This document shows positions 1,249 to 6,860 of a DNA stretch of 33,151 nt, piece by piece; position 1 is the stretch's first letter; the number at the start of each line of letters is the position of its first letter. The notes below the pieces were generated by a model. It did not search any database and had not been told where the DNA came from. It saw nothing but the letters and a program-made list of their open reading frames with translations. The DNA lies in NCBI GenBank assembly GCA_017464345.1, contig JAFUAH010000029.1, positions 1-33,151 of the forward strand. The letters are read 5' to 3'. Source of the stretch: Bacteroidaceae bacterium (GTDB taxonomy: Bacteria; Bacteroidota; Bacteroidia; Bacteroidales; Bacteroidaceae). A program made the translations under genes and the position numbers.

Positions 1249-1515
1249 ATGAAGAAGAGAAAGTATGAGAGACCCGAGACGCAGGTTTACGAACTGGGCT
1301 CGCAGGAGATTATCGCCTTCTCGGGCGATGCCACCCGCAGCGGCTACGGCAGCGGCAGCATCGACGAGGGCATCAGTGGCTCGCGCAGCGGCTACGGAGG
1401 CGGTTCGTGGTTCGACGGCATCACGGGCGGTCGCAGCGGTTACGGCAGCGGCAGCATCGACGAGGGCGTCAGTGGCTCGCGCAGCGGCTACGGCAGCGGC
1501 AGTCTGGACAACTAA
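1249..1515 (+). CDS. Small Gly/Ser/Tyr-repeat protein upstream of the DGR target
   Basis: This 88-residue protein starts MKKRKYERPETQVYELGS. From about residue 29 it consists of repeats of the type RSGYGSGSIDEG(I/V)SGS, with three to four copies of SGYGSGS or a close variant. There is no signal peptide or membrane segment. The first 25 residues resemble the short basic N-termini (MKKxxYxxPxxxV) of many small Bacteroidales proteins of unknown function. It lies 52 bp upstream of the DGR target lipoprotein on the same strand and probably shares its transcript. The repeat DNA is GC-rich, so several other frames are also open, but only this one has a sensible start (preceded by tcctgaaagaaa) and a regular repeat. 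The function is unknown; a matrix, adhesin-like or modified peptide role is speculative. Confidence 0.65.
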   Translation: MKKRKYERPETQVYELGSQEIIAFSGDATRSGYGSGSIDEGISGSRSGYGGGSWFDGITGGRSGYGSGSIDEGVSGSRSGYGSGSLDN

Positions 1516-1567
1516 CAGAGACAGCAAACATTTTTATTAATACAATCCCTTAAAAAAAGTTACGAAA

Positions 1568-3064
1568 ATGAAAAAGAGTATGAAGACAATCCAGGCCATG
1601 ACCCTGCTTGTGCTGGGCGGCCTGGCGTTCACAGCCTGCTCCAGCGACGAGCAGGAGCCCCAGGCTCCCGAGGCCCAGCAGTGGAGCGTGCGCATCCGGG
1701 CTACGCAGGGCACCGACACGCGTGCCCTCACCGACAACGGCGACGGCACCCTCTTGCCCACCTGGGAGAGCTCGGATCGCGTGGTGGTGAAGAGCGGAAG
1801 CACCACCGTGGGCACCCTAGAGGCCACCGCCAGCAGCACTGCCTCCACCACACTGGTGGGCGACATCAGCGGCACCTACACCGCCAACAGCAGTACGCTG
1901 GAACTTACCTATTACCCGCGGGGCCAACAGCAGGGCGCAACCACGCTTAGCTACGAGAACCAGAATGGTACCCTGGAAGGCGCACAGGAGTACGACTTCG
2001 CCACGGCCACGGTCAAAGTCACACGGGTGGATGCCCAAAACGGTGTGCTGGAGACCGAGGTGGCCAGCTTCACACCGCGGCAGGCCATACTGAAACTGAA
2101 GTTCCAGGACAGCGACGGCAACCAGGTGACGGGCGTCAAGAGCGTCTATGTCAGCAGCACCCACGGAGACGCTTCGGCCGTGCTGTCCAGCGCAACTGAC
2201 GACTACGTCTACATAGCCGTACCGGCAGGCACCGAAGACACCCGACAGACCTTCACCTTCACAGTGAACACCTCCGCCAACAAGACTTACCGGATCAGCC
2301 GCGCCATGACCGTGAAGAACAGCCTCTGCTATACCTCCACGCTCACCGGCTTCAGCCAGTACACCGGCGTGCCTCTCTCCAGCGTCACCAGCGAGCACAT
2401 CGGCTGGGTTATCTGGACCGACGGCAATGTCTATGAACCTTGGGCCTTCGGGGCTTCGGGCACACGTACGGCCATGGTGGCCTATAGTGGCACGGCAGGC
2501 TCGGTGGACAAGAGCAGTGGCACATACCATGGCTTGGCCATAGCCCTGACCGATGCCAGCACCAGTGCAAAATGGTATTCGTCAGACAGCGGTACGCAGC
2601 TTACGGGCTACCAGAACTCGACCTTCGCCACACAAATTAGTGAAGACTATCGCAAGGGTATCGAATTCACATCTACGCTAAATGCCATTGACGGGTGCGC
2701 TGCTGCACAGGCTGCTAATAGTTTTAGCACTGCACGTCCCGCTTCGGGCACGAGTGGTTGGTTCCTGCCCAGTGCGGCTCAGTGGTACCTTGTGCTCACT
2801 CAAGCCGGCCTGAGTTGGTCAGCATGGGGCTATAGTAAAGAAGGTCAGGCTGGTTGGAATACCAACATCAACGGTAGCGACGGCCTCAATGCGAAGCTTA
2901 CTGCTGCTGGTGGAACTGGGTTCAGCGCCGGCTACTACTGGTCCAGCTCTGAGCTCTCCACCACCTACGCCGTGCTCGTGTACTTCCGTGCCGGCGGTGG
3001 CGTGTGCGTGGGCAACAACACTAAGTCCAGCGCGCGCCGGGTGCGTGCGTTCCTCGCTTTTTAA
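1568..3064 (+). CDS. DGR target: surface lipoprotein with variable C-type-lectin-like C-terminus
   Basis: The 498-residue protein has a type II signal peptide with lipobox LAFTAC (Cys24), followed by SSDEQEPQ, so it is an exported lipoprotein. Residues about 35-260 are Thr/Ser-rich and beta-like, resembling fimbrillin-type Bacteroidales lipoproteins. Residues about 270-498 look like the C-type-lectin/formylglycine-generating-enzyme-like fold used by DGR targets: a GWFLPSAAQWYLVL segment, then YYWSSSE and the terminal VRAFLAF. Codons 453-498 are the variable region, which ends at the stop codon. The corresponding template at 3712-3848 differs only at adenines. By analogy with Mtd and TvpA, the protein probably displays a diversified ligand-binding surface outside the cell. 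The ligand cannot be predicted. Confidence 0.93.
   Translation: MKKSMKTIQAMTLLVLGGLAFTACSSDEQEPQAPEAQQWSVRIRATQGTDTRALTDNGDGTLLPTWESSDRVVVKSGSTTVGTLEATASSTASTTLVGDISGTYTANSSTLELTYYPRGQQQGATTLSYENQNGTLEGAQEYDFATATVKVTRVDAQNGVLETEVASFTPRQAILKLKFQDSDGNQVTGVKSVYVSSTHGDASAVLSSATDDYVYIAVPAGTEDTRQTFTFTVNTSANKTYRISRAMTVKNSLCYTSTLTGFSQYTGVPLSSVTSEHIGWVIWTDGNVYEPWAFGASGTRTAMVAYSGTAGSVDKSSGTYHGLAIALTDASTSAKWYSSDSGTQLTGYQNSTFATQISEDYRKGIEFTSTLNAIDGCAAAQAANSFSTARPASGTSGWFLPSAAQWYLVLTQAGLSWSAWGYSKEGQAGWNTNINGSDGLNAKLTAAGGTGFSAGYYWSSSELSTTYAVLVYFRAGGGVCVGNNTKSSARRVRAFLAF
2925..3061 (+). other. DGR variable region (VR)
   Basis: This stretch aligns without gaps to the template at 3712-3848 (offset 787 bp). 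There are 22 mismatches in 137 bp, all at positions where the template has A: G replaces it at 12, and C or T at the other 10. Fifteen amino acids differ, including 12 of the template's 14 Asn codons. The last 25 bp (3037-3061) are identical to the template and form the presumed initiation-of-mutagenic-homology end. Identity stops abruptly at the target's stop codon on the right and at about 2925 on the left. Confidence 0.96.
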
Positions 3065-3711
3065 CTATTTAATTATTTAATAATTTATCTATTTAAAAGC
3101 GAAGCTCTTAGCATTGTCGGTCTGCTGTCCCTCTCCCCCTGTGTCGGTGGAAAATCCTATCTGGGACACACCTCCCCTGGCCAAGCGGCGCGGGACGGCA
3201 GACTGGCAAGCCGGACGAAGACGAAAACAGAGAGAAAACAAAACAGCAAAGTAACCAGAATAAAAAGTAGAAAAAAGGGAAACATGAAAAAGGAAACCGG
3301 CCTCGCTCAGTCTGCACGGATTCGCGCCGCCCACCCCGTAGGGGACGGCGGTGCGCTCCCGACCCGGATGTCCCCCCCGCAGGGGCTCCGCGTGCGGCGG
3401 TGGGGCCGTCGCCGGCGCACTTCGGGTGCGCCAAACGGAGCAAATGCCTCGCTGGCCGGATTGGGTGTGGCCACGACTGCATCCAGAGAGCTGTCTTTTT
3501 TTGAAAAGGACCATCGGCAGACAAGCCTCACGAGTGGCCCTACAGGTGCTTTAAGCCTCTATGCAGAAATGCAAAAGGGCATCAAGGGAAAACAAGGTCC
3601 GCAAAACCGGGAGAACCCACTGCATCCTGTGCTGGGGTAATTGCACGGAATACTCGCCGTGCTCTATGGGGTAGTTCGCAAATGCAAAACAGATGGACTT
3701 AGCTTTGCTGG
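3065..3711 (+). other. Spacer between VR and TR, no supported gene
   Basis: An AT-rich run (3065-3100) directly after the target gene gives way to very GC-rich sequence. A stable hairpin is visible at 3414-3432: GGCGCAC and GTGCGCC around a TTCGG loop. A 118-codon frame (3284-3640, starting MKKETGLAQ) exists, but its composition (Arg, Gly and Pro runs, no domain) is what GC-rich DNA gives by chance, so I do not call it. The region probably holds the promoter and 5' part of the TR-containing RNA, but I cannot place a convincing promoter. Confidence 0.5.
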
Positions 3712-3848
3712 GCGCCGACAACTACTGGTCCAGCTCTGAGAACTCCACCACCAACGCCGTGAACGTGAACTTCAATGCCAGCAATGGCGTGAACGTGAAC
3801 AACAACAATAAGTCCAACACGAACCGGGTGCGTGCGTTCCTCGCTTTT
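3712..3848 (+). ncRNA. DGR template repeat (TR), part of a template RNA
   Basis: This 137-bp segment is the non-variable partner of 2925-3061. It contains 38 adenines, 22 of which are substituted in VR. In the VR reading frame it holds 14 Asn codons of AAC/AAT type. These codons can change at two positions without ever giving a stop, the usual design of DGR templates. In known DGRs the TR is transcribed to a noncoding RNA that the RT-Avd complex copies with adenine-specific errors. A 99-codon frame covers it (3693-3992), but I treat that as incidental because the frame is inherited from the VR coding sequence. The exact RNA ends are not visible. Confidence 0.95.
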
Positions 3849-4189
3849 CCTAAAGAGAATATACAAGACACACATATATACACACATAACCCAAGGAACC
3901 ACCGGGGGCGGCAACGGCCCCACACCGCACGGAGGAGAGAGGCTGAGGGGGAGTCCCTATCATCATCAGCTCTGACGTTACAGTCTCTGTGACAGAGGCG
4001 AAAACGTCTATCCTAACTAATCGAACACATCTCTCCCTTCCCTCTCTCTCCTCCTCGTGTGCAGCCCATCCTCCCCCCCTGTGTGTGCTCCTCACGGTCT
4101 CCCATGTGTGCCTTCCCCCCTGCGCGCCGCAGGCAGCAGGGCACTAGCTCCCCCTTTTTTTTTCGAAAATCCAAAAAGAAACATTTGCC
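3849..4189 (+). other. TR-downstream spacer, probable 3' part of the template RNA
   Basis: These 341 bp separate the TR from the accessory genes and contain no credible ORF. Visible features are an ACAC/ATAT-rich stretch (about 3868-3892), a small perfect hairpin CTCTG-tga-CAGAG at 3985-3997, and a long pyrimidine-rich tract (about 4030-4160). In the Bordetella phage DGR the RNA just 3' of TR is needed for cDNA priming and RT-Avd binding, so this spacer may have the same role. That assignment is inference from position only. Confidence 0.45.
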
Positions 4190-4714
4190 ATGAGCGAAAA
4201 AGAGATACTCCAGCTGCAGGCTGGGCATCCCGGCCGCGGCTATCTGCTGCGCGTGGGCCTCTTCTATCATGCCTACGATGCCTCAGCCTTCGCCCTGGGT
4301 CGCCTGACGGGCTACCGTGTCGTCGAGCGCAGCCGCCGGGGCTACGGAGTGGCCGTGCTGGGTTTCCCCTCGGCCCGGCTGGCCAGTGTGCGCGGCACGC
4401 TGGCTGCCCATGGCATACAACTCTGCCCGGCCGACCCTGAGGGCAACCCCCAGCCAGCGGCCGACACCACGCCAGCGGACACCTCCGCACAGCCTGGCTT
4501 CCTTTGCTTCGAGAGCCCCCTGCTGTTAGAGGCCCCGGAAACTCCGCCAACTCCGCCAACTCCGGCCAATCCGAAAAAAACGGAAAAAACGGAAATTCCG
4601 GCCACTCAGAGTCCTCTGCTCCGCGAGCTCCTCGCCTTCGACCTGGCATCCAGCACTCCGATGGATGCCATGAACTTCCTCAACCGACTGCGCACCACCT
4701 ATGGCCCTCAGTGA
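4190..4714 (+). CDS. MutS-like DGR accessory protein (MSL type)
   Basis: Residues 4-83 of this 174-residue protein follow the mismatch-recognition domain I of MutS. ILQLQAGHPG..LLRVGLFYHAY parallels the MutS stretch around LLFYRMGDFYELF, and VAVLGFPSARLASV parallels the MutS MAGIPYHAVENYL region. The Phe-x-Glu wedge motif of MutS is altered: FYE becomes FYH. A Pro/Thr/Lys linker follows (about 85-140). Residues 148-171 (FDLASSTPMDAMNFLNRLR) resemble the extreme C-terminal helix of MutS (S-L-T-P-x-E-A-L-x-x-L-xx-L). No ATPase domain is present. The gene overlaps avd by 14 bp (avd ATG at 4701, stop at 4712-4714). MutS-like proteins have been noted as accessory genes in some DGRs. Possible roles are binding mismatched cDNA/DNA or blocking repair; neither is demonstrated here. 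Confidence 0.8.
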   Translation: MSEKEILQLQAGHPGRGYLLRVGLFYHAYDASAFALGRLTGYRVVERSRRGYGVAVLGFPSARLASVRGTLAAHGIQLCPADPEGNPQPAADTTPADTSAQPGFLCFESPLLLEAPETPPTPPTPANPKKTEKTEIPATQSPLLRELLAFDLASSTPMDAMNFLNRLRTTYGPQ

Positions 4715-5102
4715 ATCGCTCCCCGTCTACCGCCAGAGCTACGAACTGCTGCAGCACATACTGCTGCTCGTGCCCAAGTTGCCCCGCATCTACCGCTTCA
4801 ACGTGGGACAGCGCCTTATCGACTCTGCCCTGGACGTGCTCAGCCTCATCTACGAGGCCAATGCCTCGCGTGACAAGGTACAGCCCCTGACACGCCTGGC
4901 ACGCCAGTACGAGATGACCACCATGCTCCTGCGCGTCCTCTACGATACCCATGTCATCGGGGCCAAGCAGGCCGCATTCTTCATCCAACTCACCACCGGC
5001 ATAGGCCGCCAGATAACAGCCTGGAAAAACCATTACCTCAGTGTGCCGCACACCAATGACAAAAACCCACGCCGAACAGCCGACGACACCCCCGGCAACT
5101 GA
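4701..5102 (+). CDS. avd: Accessory variability determinant Avd
   Basis: The 133-residue protein is almost entirely helical. It begins LPVYRQSYELLQHILLLVPK and continues with a helix containing FNVGQRLIDSALDVLSLIYEA, then RLARQYEMTTMLLRVLYD and the closing ITAWKNHYL. This is the pattern of the Avd/S23-type four-helix bundle that forms a pentameric, positively charged barrel binding the RT and template RNA in the Bordetella phage DGR. The length matches the family (about 125-130). The start ATG lies inside the end of the MutS-like gene, and the 3' end overlaps the RT gene by about 47 bp, so the three proteins are translationally coupled. Conserved position next to the RT supports the call strongly. 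Confidence 0.93.
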   Translation: MALSESLPVYRQSYELLQHILLLVPKLPRIYRFNVGQRLIDSALDVLSLIYEANASRDKVQPLTRLARQYEMTTMLLRVLYDTHVIGAKQAAFFIQLTTGIGRQITAWKNHYLSVPHTNDKNPRRTADDTPGN

Positions 5103-6357
5103 CACTGCCGCCATACCCCTGGAGGAGTTGGTGGAGGCCTACTACAGCTGTAGGCGACGCAAGCGCAGCACCGCGAATGCCCTGCGCTTCGAACTGAACT
5201 GGGAGGAACAGATCGTCAGCCTGTGGGAGGACATCAACAACCGCACTTACCGCCCCGGGCGCTCCATAGCCTTCATCGTGGAGAAACCCACCAAACGCGA
5301 AATCTTTGCCGCCGACTTCCGCGACCGCGTCGTGCACCACCTCATCGCCGCCAAACTGGTGCCGCTGCTGGAGAAACAGTTCATACCCAACAGCTACAGC
5401 ACACGACCCGGACGCGGCACACACTACGGACTGCGCAGCGTGCAGGAGATGATCCGAGAGTGCTCCCACAACTACACACGCGACTGCTATGTCATGAAAC
5501 TGGACATACAGGGATTCTTCATGGCCATCGAGAAGGAGCGGCTCATGCACTTGGCAGAGCACTTCATCCTGCGCCGCTACAAGGGCAAAGACCGCCAGCT
5601 CCTCATCTGGCTGCTCAAACAGACCCTGATGAACCGCCCCGAGGAGGGGTGCATCTTCCGCAGTCCGCTCGAAAAATGGGTGGGCCTGCCGCAGAGCAAG
5701 ACCCTCATGGGCAAGGACGGGCGACGGGGACTGCCCATCGGCAATCTCACCAGCCAGCTCATGGCGCTGCTCTTCCTGGACGAACTGGACCACCGGGTAG
5801 GCCGCGAATGGCACATCCGCTACTACGGGCGATACGTGGATGACATGGTGCTCGTGCATCCCGACCCGGCCTGGCTCTTGGCCGTCCGCCGTCGCATCGA
5901 CCACTGGCTGACCGCTCACGGACAACGCCTCCATCCCCGCAAATTCTATCTCCAGCACTACGCAAAAGGTGTACTCTTCGTGGGGGGCATGCTCCTGCCC
6001 GGACGCATCCTGCTCAGTCGCCGCACGGCGGGATTCTTCATCGAAGCCCTCCACCCGATGAATGCCATGGCGGAACGGCTTCCCCTGCCCACACCACGGG
6101 AGTCGGATGATCTCTTGGCCTCCGTGCTTTCCCCTGCCGTCTACCATCTGCTGGCCTCCATAAACTCCTATCTGGGACTGCTGAGCCAGTTCCGGGCTTG
6201 GCGCTTCTTCCATCGCATGATACCTCGCCTGTCTCCGGCCTGGTATCACCACGTCTACATCACCTCCAGCAGAGGGCGCATGAAGGCCGTAGCCCATGGC
6301 CCGAAAGTAAATGGCAATAGCCATAATCGTCGCACTCAAGCGAAGGCCATTCGCTGA
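5056..6357 (+). CDS. DGR reverse transcriptase
   Basis: The retron/group-II-like RT has 433 residues from ATG 5056; a GTG at 5041 would add five. Motifs in order are: RPGRSIAFIVEKPTKREIFA and DRVVHHLI (motifs 1-2), MKLDIQGFF with catalytic Asp150 (motif 3), GLPIGNLTSQ at about 225-234, and RYVDDMV with YVDD at 260-263 (motif 5). The (L/I/V)GxxxSQ form in place of the usual QG motif 4 is diagnostic of DGR RTs. A basic C-terminal thumb follows. No protease, RNase H or maturase X/HNH domain is present, and size agrees with DGR RTs. The enzyme copies TR RNA into adenine-mutagenised cDNA that replaces VR. The protein ends just before a hairpin array that may terminate the operon. I chose ATG 5056 because the RT alignment begins downstream of it. 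Confidence 0.96.
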   Translation: MTKTHAEQPTTPPATDTAAIPLEELVEAYYSCRRRKRSTANALRFELNWEEQIVSLWEDINNRTYRPGRSIAFIVEKPTKREIFAADFRDRVVHHLIAAKLVPLLEKQFIPNSYSTRPGRGTHYGLRSVQEMIRECSHNYTRDCYVMKLDIQGFFMAIEKERLMHLAEHFILRRYKGKDRQLLIWLLKQTLMNRPEEGCIFRSPLEKWVGLPQSKTLMGKDGRRGLPIGNLTSQLMALLFLDELDHRVGREWHIRYYGRYVDDMVLVHPDPAWLLAVRRRIDHWLTAHGQRLHPRKFYLQHYAKGVLFVGGMLLPGRILLSRRTAGFFIEALHPMNAMAERLPLPTPRESDDLLASVLSPAVYHLLASINSYLGLLSQFRAWRFFHRMIPRLSPAWYHHVYITSSRGRMKAVAHGPKVNGNSHNRRTQAKAIR

Positions 6358-6860
6358 ATTCGTAAAATTCGCCGTTTCTTTTCTTTTGTCGGCGAATGGT
6401 GCGAATTAAGCGAATAAAGCGTCAGTTATTTTTATTCGCTGAATTCGTAAAATTCGCCGTTCCTTTCTCTTTGTCGGCGAATGGTGCGAATTAAGCGAAT
6501 AAAGCGTGAATTATTTTTATTCGTTCTATTCGTAAAATTCGCCGTTTCTTTTTTCTTTGTCGGCGAATGGTGCGAATTACACGAATAAAGCGTGAGTTAT
6601 TTTTATTCGTTCTATTCGTGAAATTCGCCGTTCCTTCTCTTTGTCGGCGAATGGTGCGAATTAAGCGAATTAAGCGTCAGTTATTTTTATTCGTTCTATT
6701 CGTAAAATTCGCCGTTTCTTTTTTCTTTGTCGGCGAATGGTGCGAATTACACGAATAAAGCGTGAGTTATTTTTATTCGTTCTATTCGTAAAATTCGCCG
6801 TTCCTTCTCTTTGTCGGCGAATGGTGCGAATTAAGCGAATTTAATTCGTGGTAATTCGTG
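6345..6860. repeat. Six-copy ~85-bp hairpin repeat array
   Basis: The core gtcggcgaatggtgcgaatt starts at 6388, 6473, 6559, 6643, 6729 and 6813, a period of 84-86 bp. Each unit is an imperfect palindrome: attcgccg on the left pairs with cggcgaat on the right across a T-rich loop, and outer arms ttcgctgaattcg and cgaattaagcgaa extend it. Units vary in the loop and in the outer arm (aagcgaataaagcg versus acacgaataaagcg). Repeats touch each other directly, so this is not a CRISPR array. It fills the gap between the RT gene and the mmd promoter. It may act as terminator or RNA-stability element, or as an expanded mobile palindrome. Confidence 0.85.

Follow-up and report, generated by a model that had tools for sequence, protein, structure and literature searches.

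The 33,151-nt stretch of Bacteroidaceae DNA analyzed here (hereafter, the window) carries, all on the + strand, a 498-aa lipoprotein gene (1568..3064; signal peptide, lipobox Cys24) that ends in a variable repeat (VR, 2925..3061), a template repeat (TR, 3712..3848), and genes for a 174-aa MutS-like accessory protein (MSL, 4190..4714), the accessory protein Avd (4701..5102), and a reverse transcriptase (RT, 5041..6357). The last three genes overlap mutually. With all the named parts present, the locus is almost certainly what an earlier note had claimed it to be, a complete diversity-generating retroelement (DGR).

Repeats, reverse transcriptase, and cassette order

In a gapless alignment, VR and TR share 115 of 137 positions, and all 22 differences fall at TR adenines: 22 of the 38 adenines, but none of the 99 other bases, are changed in VR (A>G, 11; A>T, 6; A>C, 5). 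This realignment matched base for base the pattern claimed earlier. The probability that 22 randomly placed differences would all fall on the 38 adenines is 1.5e-15, which, together with the RT and Avd alongside, rules out with near certainty an ordinary duplication followed by random divergence, in favor of which we found nothing. Identity is lost immediately beyond both repeat ends. In the reading frame of the target, codon position 3 is free of adenine throughout TR; 12 of the 14 AAY codons of TR are changed in VR, and the codon changes, 15 in number, are all non-synonymous. BLAST of TR against the source genome (61% complete) returned TR and VR only and no second VR.

The RT matches RVT_1 (PF00078, 7.7e-18) and phrog_1423 (1.4e-88); its start may be ATG 5056 instead of GTG 5041, as comparison with the 433-aa database protein P0121 suggests. 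Because a search with the single RT sequence confirmed no named relative, we searched with an RT alignment and kept the best 80 of 554 matches. In a tree of 105 related RTs (105 of 107, two under 300 aa being left out), the window RT sits in a clade of seven with an SH-aLRT support of 99. It also matches 40 phage records, all at less than 60% identity. Avd matches bAvd (PF22296, 8.5e-16; 58.8 bits, cut-off 40) and phrog_3206 (2.9e-19), and scores 55.8 against the NCBIfam Avd model, below the cut-off of 80. These profile matches, and the presence of the motifs GLPIGNLTSQ and YVDD, agree with the earlier identification of Avd and a DGR-type RT. The catalytic residues D155, D267, and D268, on which that reading had been made to depend, are all in place and do not vary across an alignment of 32 sequences that includes the window RT.

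Our locus survey comprises 107 loci after removal of shorter duplicates (L001-L003, L005-L008, L089, L090, L095, and L096-L113 except L110), of which 83 have a VR/TR pair and 24 do not. A pair passed the scan only when A accounted for 75% or more of its differences; the pooled totals, 1644 of 3964 adenines and 73 of 8015 other bases changed, are therefore biased toward the DGR pattern. The window's order, VR-TR-MSL-avd-RT, occurs in only three of the 83 loci (window included), as against 54 for VR-avd-TR-RT, which bears out the earlier claim of a gene order unlike that of Bordetella phage. The locus resembles the DGR of Bordetella phage BPP-1 in its A-specific TR/VR differences, in a target gene that finishes with VR at its 3′ end, and in its Avd and DGR-type RT. 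It differs in that the cassette has an MSL, whereas we know of none in BPP-1. Its target is a predicted surface lipoprotein instead of a phage tail protein, and its TR precedes MSL and avd and lies ~1.2 kb from the RT gene, unlike the order mtd-VR, avd, TR, brt given for BPP-1 (PMC6642488).

From the lack of non-A differences, recent or continuing activity had been proposed. However, 42 of the 83 loci equally have zero non-A differences, and VR/TR pairs with A-only changes occur beside inactivated RTs, as reported in PMC3521204. Since clean pairs are common and can outlast RT inactivation, the A-only pattern indicates recent, but not necessarily continuing, activity, and only the first half of the proposal stands. 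Judged from its sequence, the DGR was probably active recently. We regard it as unlikely that it worked until recently and is now idle, with VR and TR yet to drift. An idle element would be consistent with those equally clean loci and pairs, as well as with relatives' loci that have MSL and mere fragments of RT or avd, but the RT, Avd, and MSL frames of the window are open, the catalytic residues are in place, and the window's share of changed adenines (22/38) ranks fifth highest among the 83 loci.

Target gene and post-VR element

In the predicted model, the N-terminal part of the target (residues ~37-264) is fimbrillin-like, and the C-terminal part (~271-498) is a C-type-lectin-like domain that ends in VR. 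A coding gene that closes with VR and whose product has a predicted lectin-like fold is as expected of a DGR target, and the lipoprotein character, fimbrillin fold, and C-terminal adhesin-like domain predicted for the product are those of a type V pilus tip pilin. The model thus makes it very probable that the target is a type V pilus tip-like surface adhesin and a predicted lipoprotein, and the randomized residues, specified by asparagine codons, are predicted to sit in its C-type-lectin-like domain. Type V pilus tip pilins have been reported as targets of diversification by Bacteroides DGRs (Macadangdang et al., cited in PMC12632263). Like these elements, the window has a Bacteroidales-type DGR and a target with a predicted fimbrillin fold and a C-terminal lectin-like domain; unlike them, it has no stalk or anchor pilin gene among the genes scanned with Pfam and NCBIfam (part of the ORFs and 1.5 kb of upstream sequence). 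Among three proteins that share ~39% identity with the target (P0002-P0004), mutual differences are far denser in the last 45 alignment columns than before them, with 14 differences within these columns and nine before them for P0003/P0004, 15 and 28 for P0002/P0003, and 18 and 27 for P0002/P0004. Across 139 genomes of the genus, the target DNA is present in the source genome only, and the database lists the target protein from one contig only.

Directly behind VR lies a candidate target-recognition element (3062..3109, + strand), in which the stop codon is followed by four A/T-rich octamers (3065-3096) and the heptamer GCGAAGC (3099-3105). GCGAAGC occurs at most 130 nt 3′ of VR in 28 of the 83 loci, both with and without MSL, and 3′ of TR in one; ATTTA-like repeats recur at 8-base spacing in the post-VR sequence. 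Moreover, a strand-specific GNA-loop hairpin is found 3′ of VR in 29 of 82 loci, one of the 83 being left out for want of 110 nt after VR. In the window, the GCGAAGC stem has only three perfect base pairs beside the loop, the mini-hairpin is not predicted by the folding tool, and 24 of 200 shuffles fold at least as well as an 8-bp arm pair that encloses a 33-nt loop. An Rfam scan of the window gave no match. The BPP-1 target is described as requiring a DNA hairpin, and phage DGR hairpins as having 7-10 bp stems and 4-nt GRNA loops (PMC3240598), in contrast to the 3-nt GAA loop of the candidate element. A candidate target-site signature of this kind, A/T octamers plus a GNA-loop hairpin, could help locate DGR targets that have no adjacent RT.

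A MutS-related accessory protein

The label "MutS-like" given earlier to the MSL product is upheld by profile and fold comparison. MSL matches the mismatch-recognition domain I of MutS (MSL residues ~4-82) and, separately, the last 38 MutS residues (~137-174). Aligned with hhalign to each end of MutS, it scored above all 40 column shuffles each time, and the top 43 of 50 fold-search matches listed are MutS/MSH. The window's own MSL has no family match in Pfam, NCBIfam, or PHROGs; a homologue in genome G006 passes Pfam MutS_I (PF01624; 21.4 bits, cut-off 20.6). A search against the sequences of solved structures found no MutS match at E 1; the kinship shows in profile-profile and fold comparison.

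MSL shares with bacterial MutS the domain I fold, the Phe of the Phe-X-Glu motif, and the C-terminal end. In E. coli MutS, a C-terminal helix-turn-helix (HTH) region at aa 766-800 is described (PMC3848065). In contrast to MutS, its 174 aa are too short for the connector, lever, clamp, or ATPase domains, MutS_V being absent from the Pfam scan, and the Glu is missing. At the Phe-X-Glu site the window MSL reads Phe-Tyr-His. The mismatch-wedging Phe is kept in all 27 MSL proteins of the surveyed loci and the Glu in none (R, 11; H, 8; K, 5; I, 2; N, 1), while all 12 MutS proteins compared have the Glu. Among the best 120 of 187 MSL database matches, 118 gave F and R in a motif search, and the other two carry these residues as well. 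Changing Glu38 to Gln is described as abolishing mismatch discrimination by MutS (PMC3848065), so that loss of the Glu may mean that MSL has lost mismatch reading. MSL is under purifying selection, as dN/dS values of 0.008/0.44 and 0.19/1.16 in two pairs indicate.

MSL is known as a DGR accessory protein from an earlier survey, which we take to be Wu et al. 2018. It is described as related to PF01624 (PMC10053308, citing that survey), and the window protein, small, MutS_I-related, and encoded in the cassette beside DGR genes, belongs in this family. Its match to the MutS C-terminus, the change of Phe-X-Glu mostly to Phe-X-R/H/K, and its frequent place beside the target go beyond the description in the relevant part of that source.

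We detected MSL in 27 of the 107 loci and not in the other 80, some of whose contigs end nearby, and MSL thus is not generally needed. Of the 23 loci that have both MSL and a VR/TR pair, 15 have MSL directly 3′ of VR. The median fraction of changed adenines is 0.429 with MSL (23 loci) versus 0.424 without (60 loci; p 0.55); this absence of a link to a larger changed-adenine share speaks against a protective effect of MSL on the mutations. Non-A differences average 0.39 with MSL versus 1.07 without (p 0.016, uncorrected for kinship), and a tree-controlled comparison had only four supported independent pairs, too few for a test. Searching 399 genomes with an MSL profile gave matches in 76 at E 0.001; since many of the weak ones were full-length MutS or short frames, we applied a threshold of E 1e-20. 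RT is on the same contig in 13 of the 18 genomes with such strong matches, and MSL is thus not separate from RT as a rule. One genome (G088, 56% complete) has nine MSL copies, eight of which come after target-like genes, and in it we found no RT at E 0.01 and no TR near the targets; at one of its loci (L150), Mfa2 and FimA genes adjoin the target-MSL pair. Of eight target pairs compared, only L150/L162 had a tail in which third-position differences were far scarcer than in the body. No MSL was found in phage records by single-sequence tblastn, a search of limited sensitivity. In the source genome, host MutS_I was found only in a 119-aa frame and MutS_V in one 946-aa frame, and the MutS_III profile had no match.

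Possible roles of MSL

By analogy with other DGRs, reverse transcription of TR RNA would introduce errors at A and the mutated cDNA would replace VR, and Avd and RT are predicted to keep overwriting the end of the adhesin gene with adenine-randomized copies. MSL would act at the target site, likely binding cDNA:VR mismatches via its kept Phe wedge; lacking the two MutS features that lead to repair, the Glu and the ATPase, it would hide the mismatches and preserve the A-to-N changes. We consider this account as a whole, a DGR rewriting an adhesin end with MSL likely hiding mismatches, to be probable. That MSL in particular serves as a mismatch shield against repair of cDNA:VR is a possibility suggested by its sequence, though short of a probable one.

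Alternatively, and somewhat doubtfully, MSL may help target recognition as a MutS-like sensor of DNA bends that binds a hairpin, a cruciform, or the cDNA:VR junction and recruits RT-Avd. Its frequent position next to target genes, including those at loci without RT, would fit such a role, as would the strand-specific hairpin 3′ of VR and the hairpin requirement of the BPP-1 target. However, the GCGAAGC element is found in loci both with and without MSL, and BPP-1, to our knowledge, uses its hairpin without an MSL. It is improbable that MSL is a dominant-negative partner that uses its MutS-like C-terminus to dock on host MutS and inhibit it in trans. The match to the last 38 MutS residues and the C-terminal HTH region described for E. 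coli MutS would fit such a role, but inhibition in trans would increase mutation across the whole genome, and one copy would suffice, whereas G088 repeats MSL next to several of its target genes.

Returning to the mismatch shield, we tentatively propose from these sequences that Bacteroidota DGRs may carry their own anti-repair factor. MSL would combine the MutS mismatch reader with the MutS C-terminal end, have a basic residue in place of the repair-licensing Glu, and cap the mutagenized cDNA:VR heteroduplex at the target gene, such that A-to-N changes reach daughter cells despite mismatch repair; it would go with target genes and could outlive a neighboring RT. In a DGR reconstituted in E. 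coli, an assay based on an 18-nt insertion is described as unaffected by mutS, which was deleted to help preserve substitutions (PMC12875486). DGRs of this type were already known, and the window locus adds another. How DGR mutations survive host mismatch repair is, as far as we know, not settled. For this question MSL, a conserved accessory related to MutS in which the mismatch-reading residue has swapped its charge, offers a concrete, testable protein.

Adenine-only divergence and cassette layout

The gapless alignment of the variable repeat (VR, 2925-3061, 137 bp) with the template repeat (TR, 3712-3848, 137 bp) contains 22 differences. They change 22 of 38 template adenines and none of the 99 other bases, confirming the adenine-only divergence claimed in the earlier note; the probability that 22 randomly placed differences would all hit adenine is 1.5e-15. 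VR/TR identity ends at both repeat boundaries. In the target frame, TR has no adenine at codon position 3, 12 of its 14 AAC/AAT codons are changed, and all 15 altered VR codons are non-synonymous. Changes at the two adenines of AAY codons never yield stops, a known trait of the templates of diversity-generating retroelements (DGRs). Our pair scan detected VR and TR in 83 of 107 loci (the window and its relatives); among these 83, the window ranks fifth by fraction of adenines changed, and 42 loci have no non-adenine differences.

The gene for Avd (accessory variability determinant, 4701-5102) matches PF22296 and PHROG Avd. The reverse transcriptase gene (RT, 5041-6357, perhaps starting at 5056) gives hits to RVT_1 and the PHROG RT family, and an alignment of 32 sequences shows conservation of both its catalytic Asp residues and its GLPIGNLTSQ region. 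An Avd and a DGR-type RT accompany the repeats, and together with the adenine-only differences they uphold the reading as a complete DGR. The element is a new member of the ordinary kind. The gene for the MutS-like protein (MSL, 4190-4714) overlaps avd by 14 bases, and avd overlaps RT by 47 bases (counted from ATG 5056), suggesting a single transcript for all three. Database entries (P0001, P0121) assign this locus's RT to 7 contigs but its target to only 1.

Directly upstream of the target gene, an 88-aa Gly/Ser/Tyr-rich ORF (1249-1515, +) contains 48-base repeats; it has no family match and no second copy in the source genome assembly. Farther upstream of both lies a 14-C run (994-1007), possibly a slippage-prone switch. 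Tandem arrays occur on either side of the cassette (124-762, 201-base unit x3.2; 6358-6841, 86-base unit x5.7).

Sequences downstream of VR

In 28 of 83 loci, the 130 nt after VR contain GCGAAGC; after TR this holds for 1 of 83, with about one expected. Sense-strand GNA-loop hairpins of at least 5 bp follow VR in 29 of 82 loci and TR in 1 of 82, where random windows predict 1.7; their antisense counterparts occur in 2 of 82. ATTTA-like repeats average 1.90 per 60 nt after VR versus 0.26 after TR, and 52 of 107 intervals between them show 8-base spacing. A/T-rich octamers plus a GNA-loop hairpin form a candidate target-site signature, strand-specific and nearly missing after TR. The hairpins of phage DGRs differ in having 4-nt GRNA loops (PMC3240598). 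In the window, four octamers and GCGAAGC follow VR; the GCGAAGC stem is short and no stable fold is predicted.

Gene order and retention of MSL

In a tree of 105 RTs, the window falls in a seven-locus clade (SH-aLRT 99) with L009, L010, L011, L012, L015 and L115; five loci are from Bacteroidaceae or Prevotella and the remaining two from genomes of one family. As the earlier note proposed, the window order differs from that of the Bordetella phage: VR-TR-MSL-avd-RT occurs in 3 of 83 loci (window, L009, L010), versus 54 for the commonest, VR-avd-TR-RT. VR-MSL-avd-TR-RT accounts for 10 loci, VR-MSL-TR-RT for 3, and every other order for one or two. Three members of the clade have the order TR-MSL-avd, and L115 has avd-MSL-TR. 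MSL comes after RT in L011 and L015 and precedes avd in L012, for which the scan found no VR/TR pair. Because its position shifts yet it is present in all seven, MSL appears to be retained for its function.

MSL across the family

Among 399 genomes of the family, 18 have an MSL match at E 1e-20 or better, 13 of them with an RT match on the same contig, no more than a few kilobases away (a fragment in G276). The other five are G131, G190, G237, G262 and G088. MSL adjoins a gene whose tail, judged by eye, resembles a lectin-like variable tail in G190 (with a fragmentary avd remnant), G237 (with a fragmentary RT remnant) and G262 (where MSL lacks its C-terminus); in G131 a broken MSL follows a similar gene.

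G088 (loci L149-L155 and L162) carries nine MSL matches, one a fragment; eight of the nine come after a target-like gene. No RT was detected in this genome, possibly through absence from the assembly only, since it is 56% complete. All seven tested targets contain DUF4906, four also a FimA-type domain. The L150 and L162 targets differ at the third position in 266 of 519 codons of the body versus 4 of 46 in the tail, as though both tails had come from one template not long ago; low tail divergence of this kind is absent from the seven other target pairs compared. In five G088 MSL pairs dN is well below dS.

Elsewhere in the source genome, a phage-like (by eye) 195-kb contig encodes a short MutS domain I protein (L135, G000:C10:78597-78953; 119-aa frame, GDFYETY intact) that shares 76% identity with the N-terminal end of a MutS from the genus.

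The name MSL reportedly comes from Wu et al. 2018. In the parts of the literature considered, reports of MSL or MutS with DGRs are sparse and give no MSL function. Carrying MSL was not associated with a higher fraction of changed adenines (p 0.55), and kinship-respecting tests of MSL association have low power. MSL may shield mutations. As a protein borne by DGRs that possibly binds mismatches, MSL is the lead worth pursuing.
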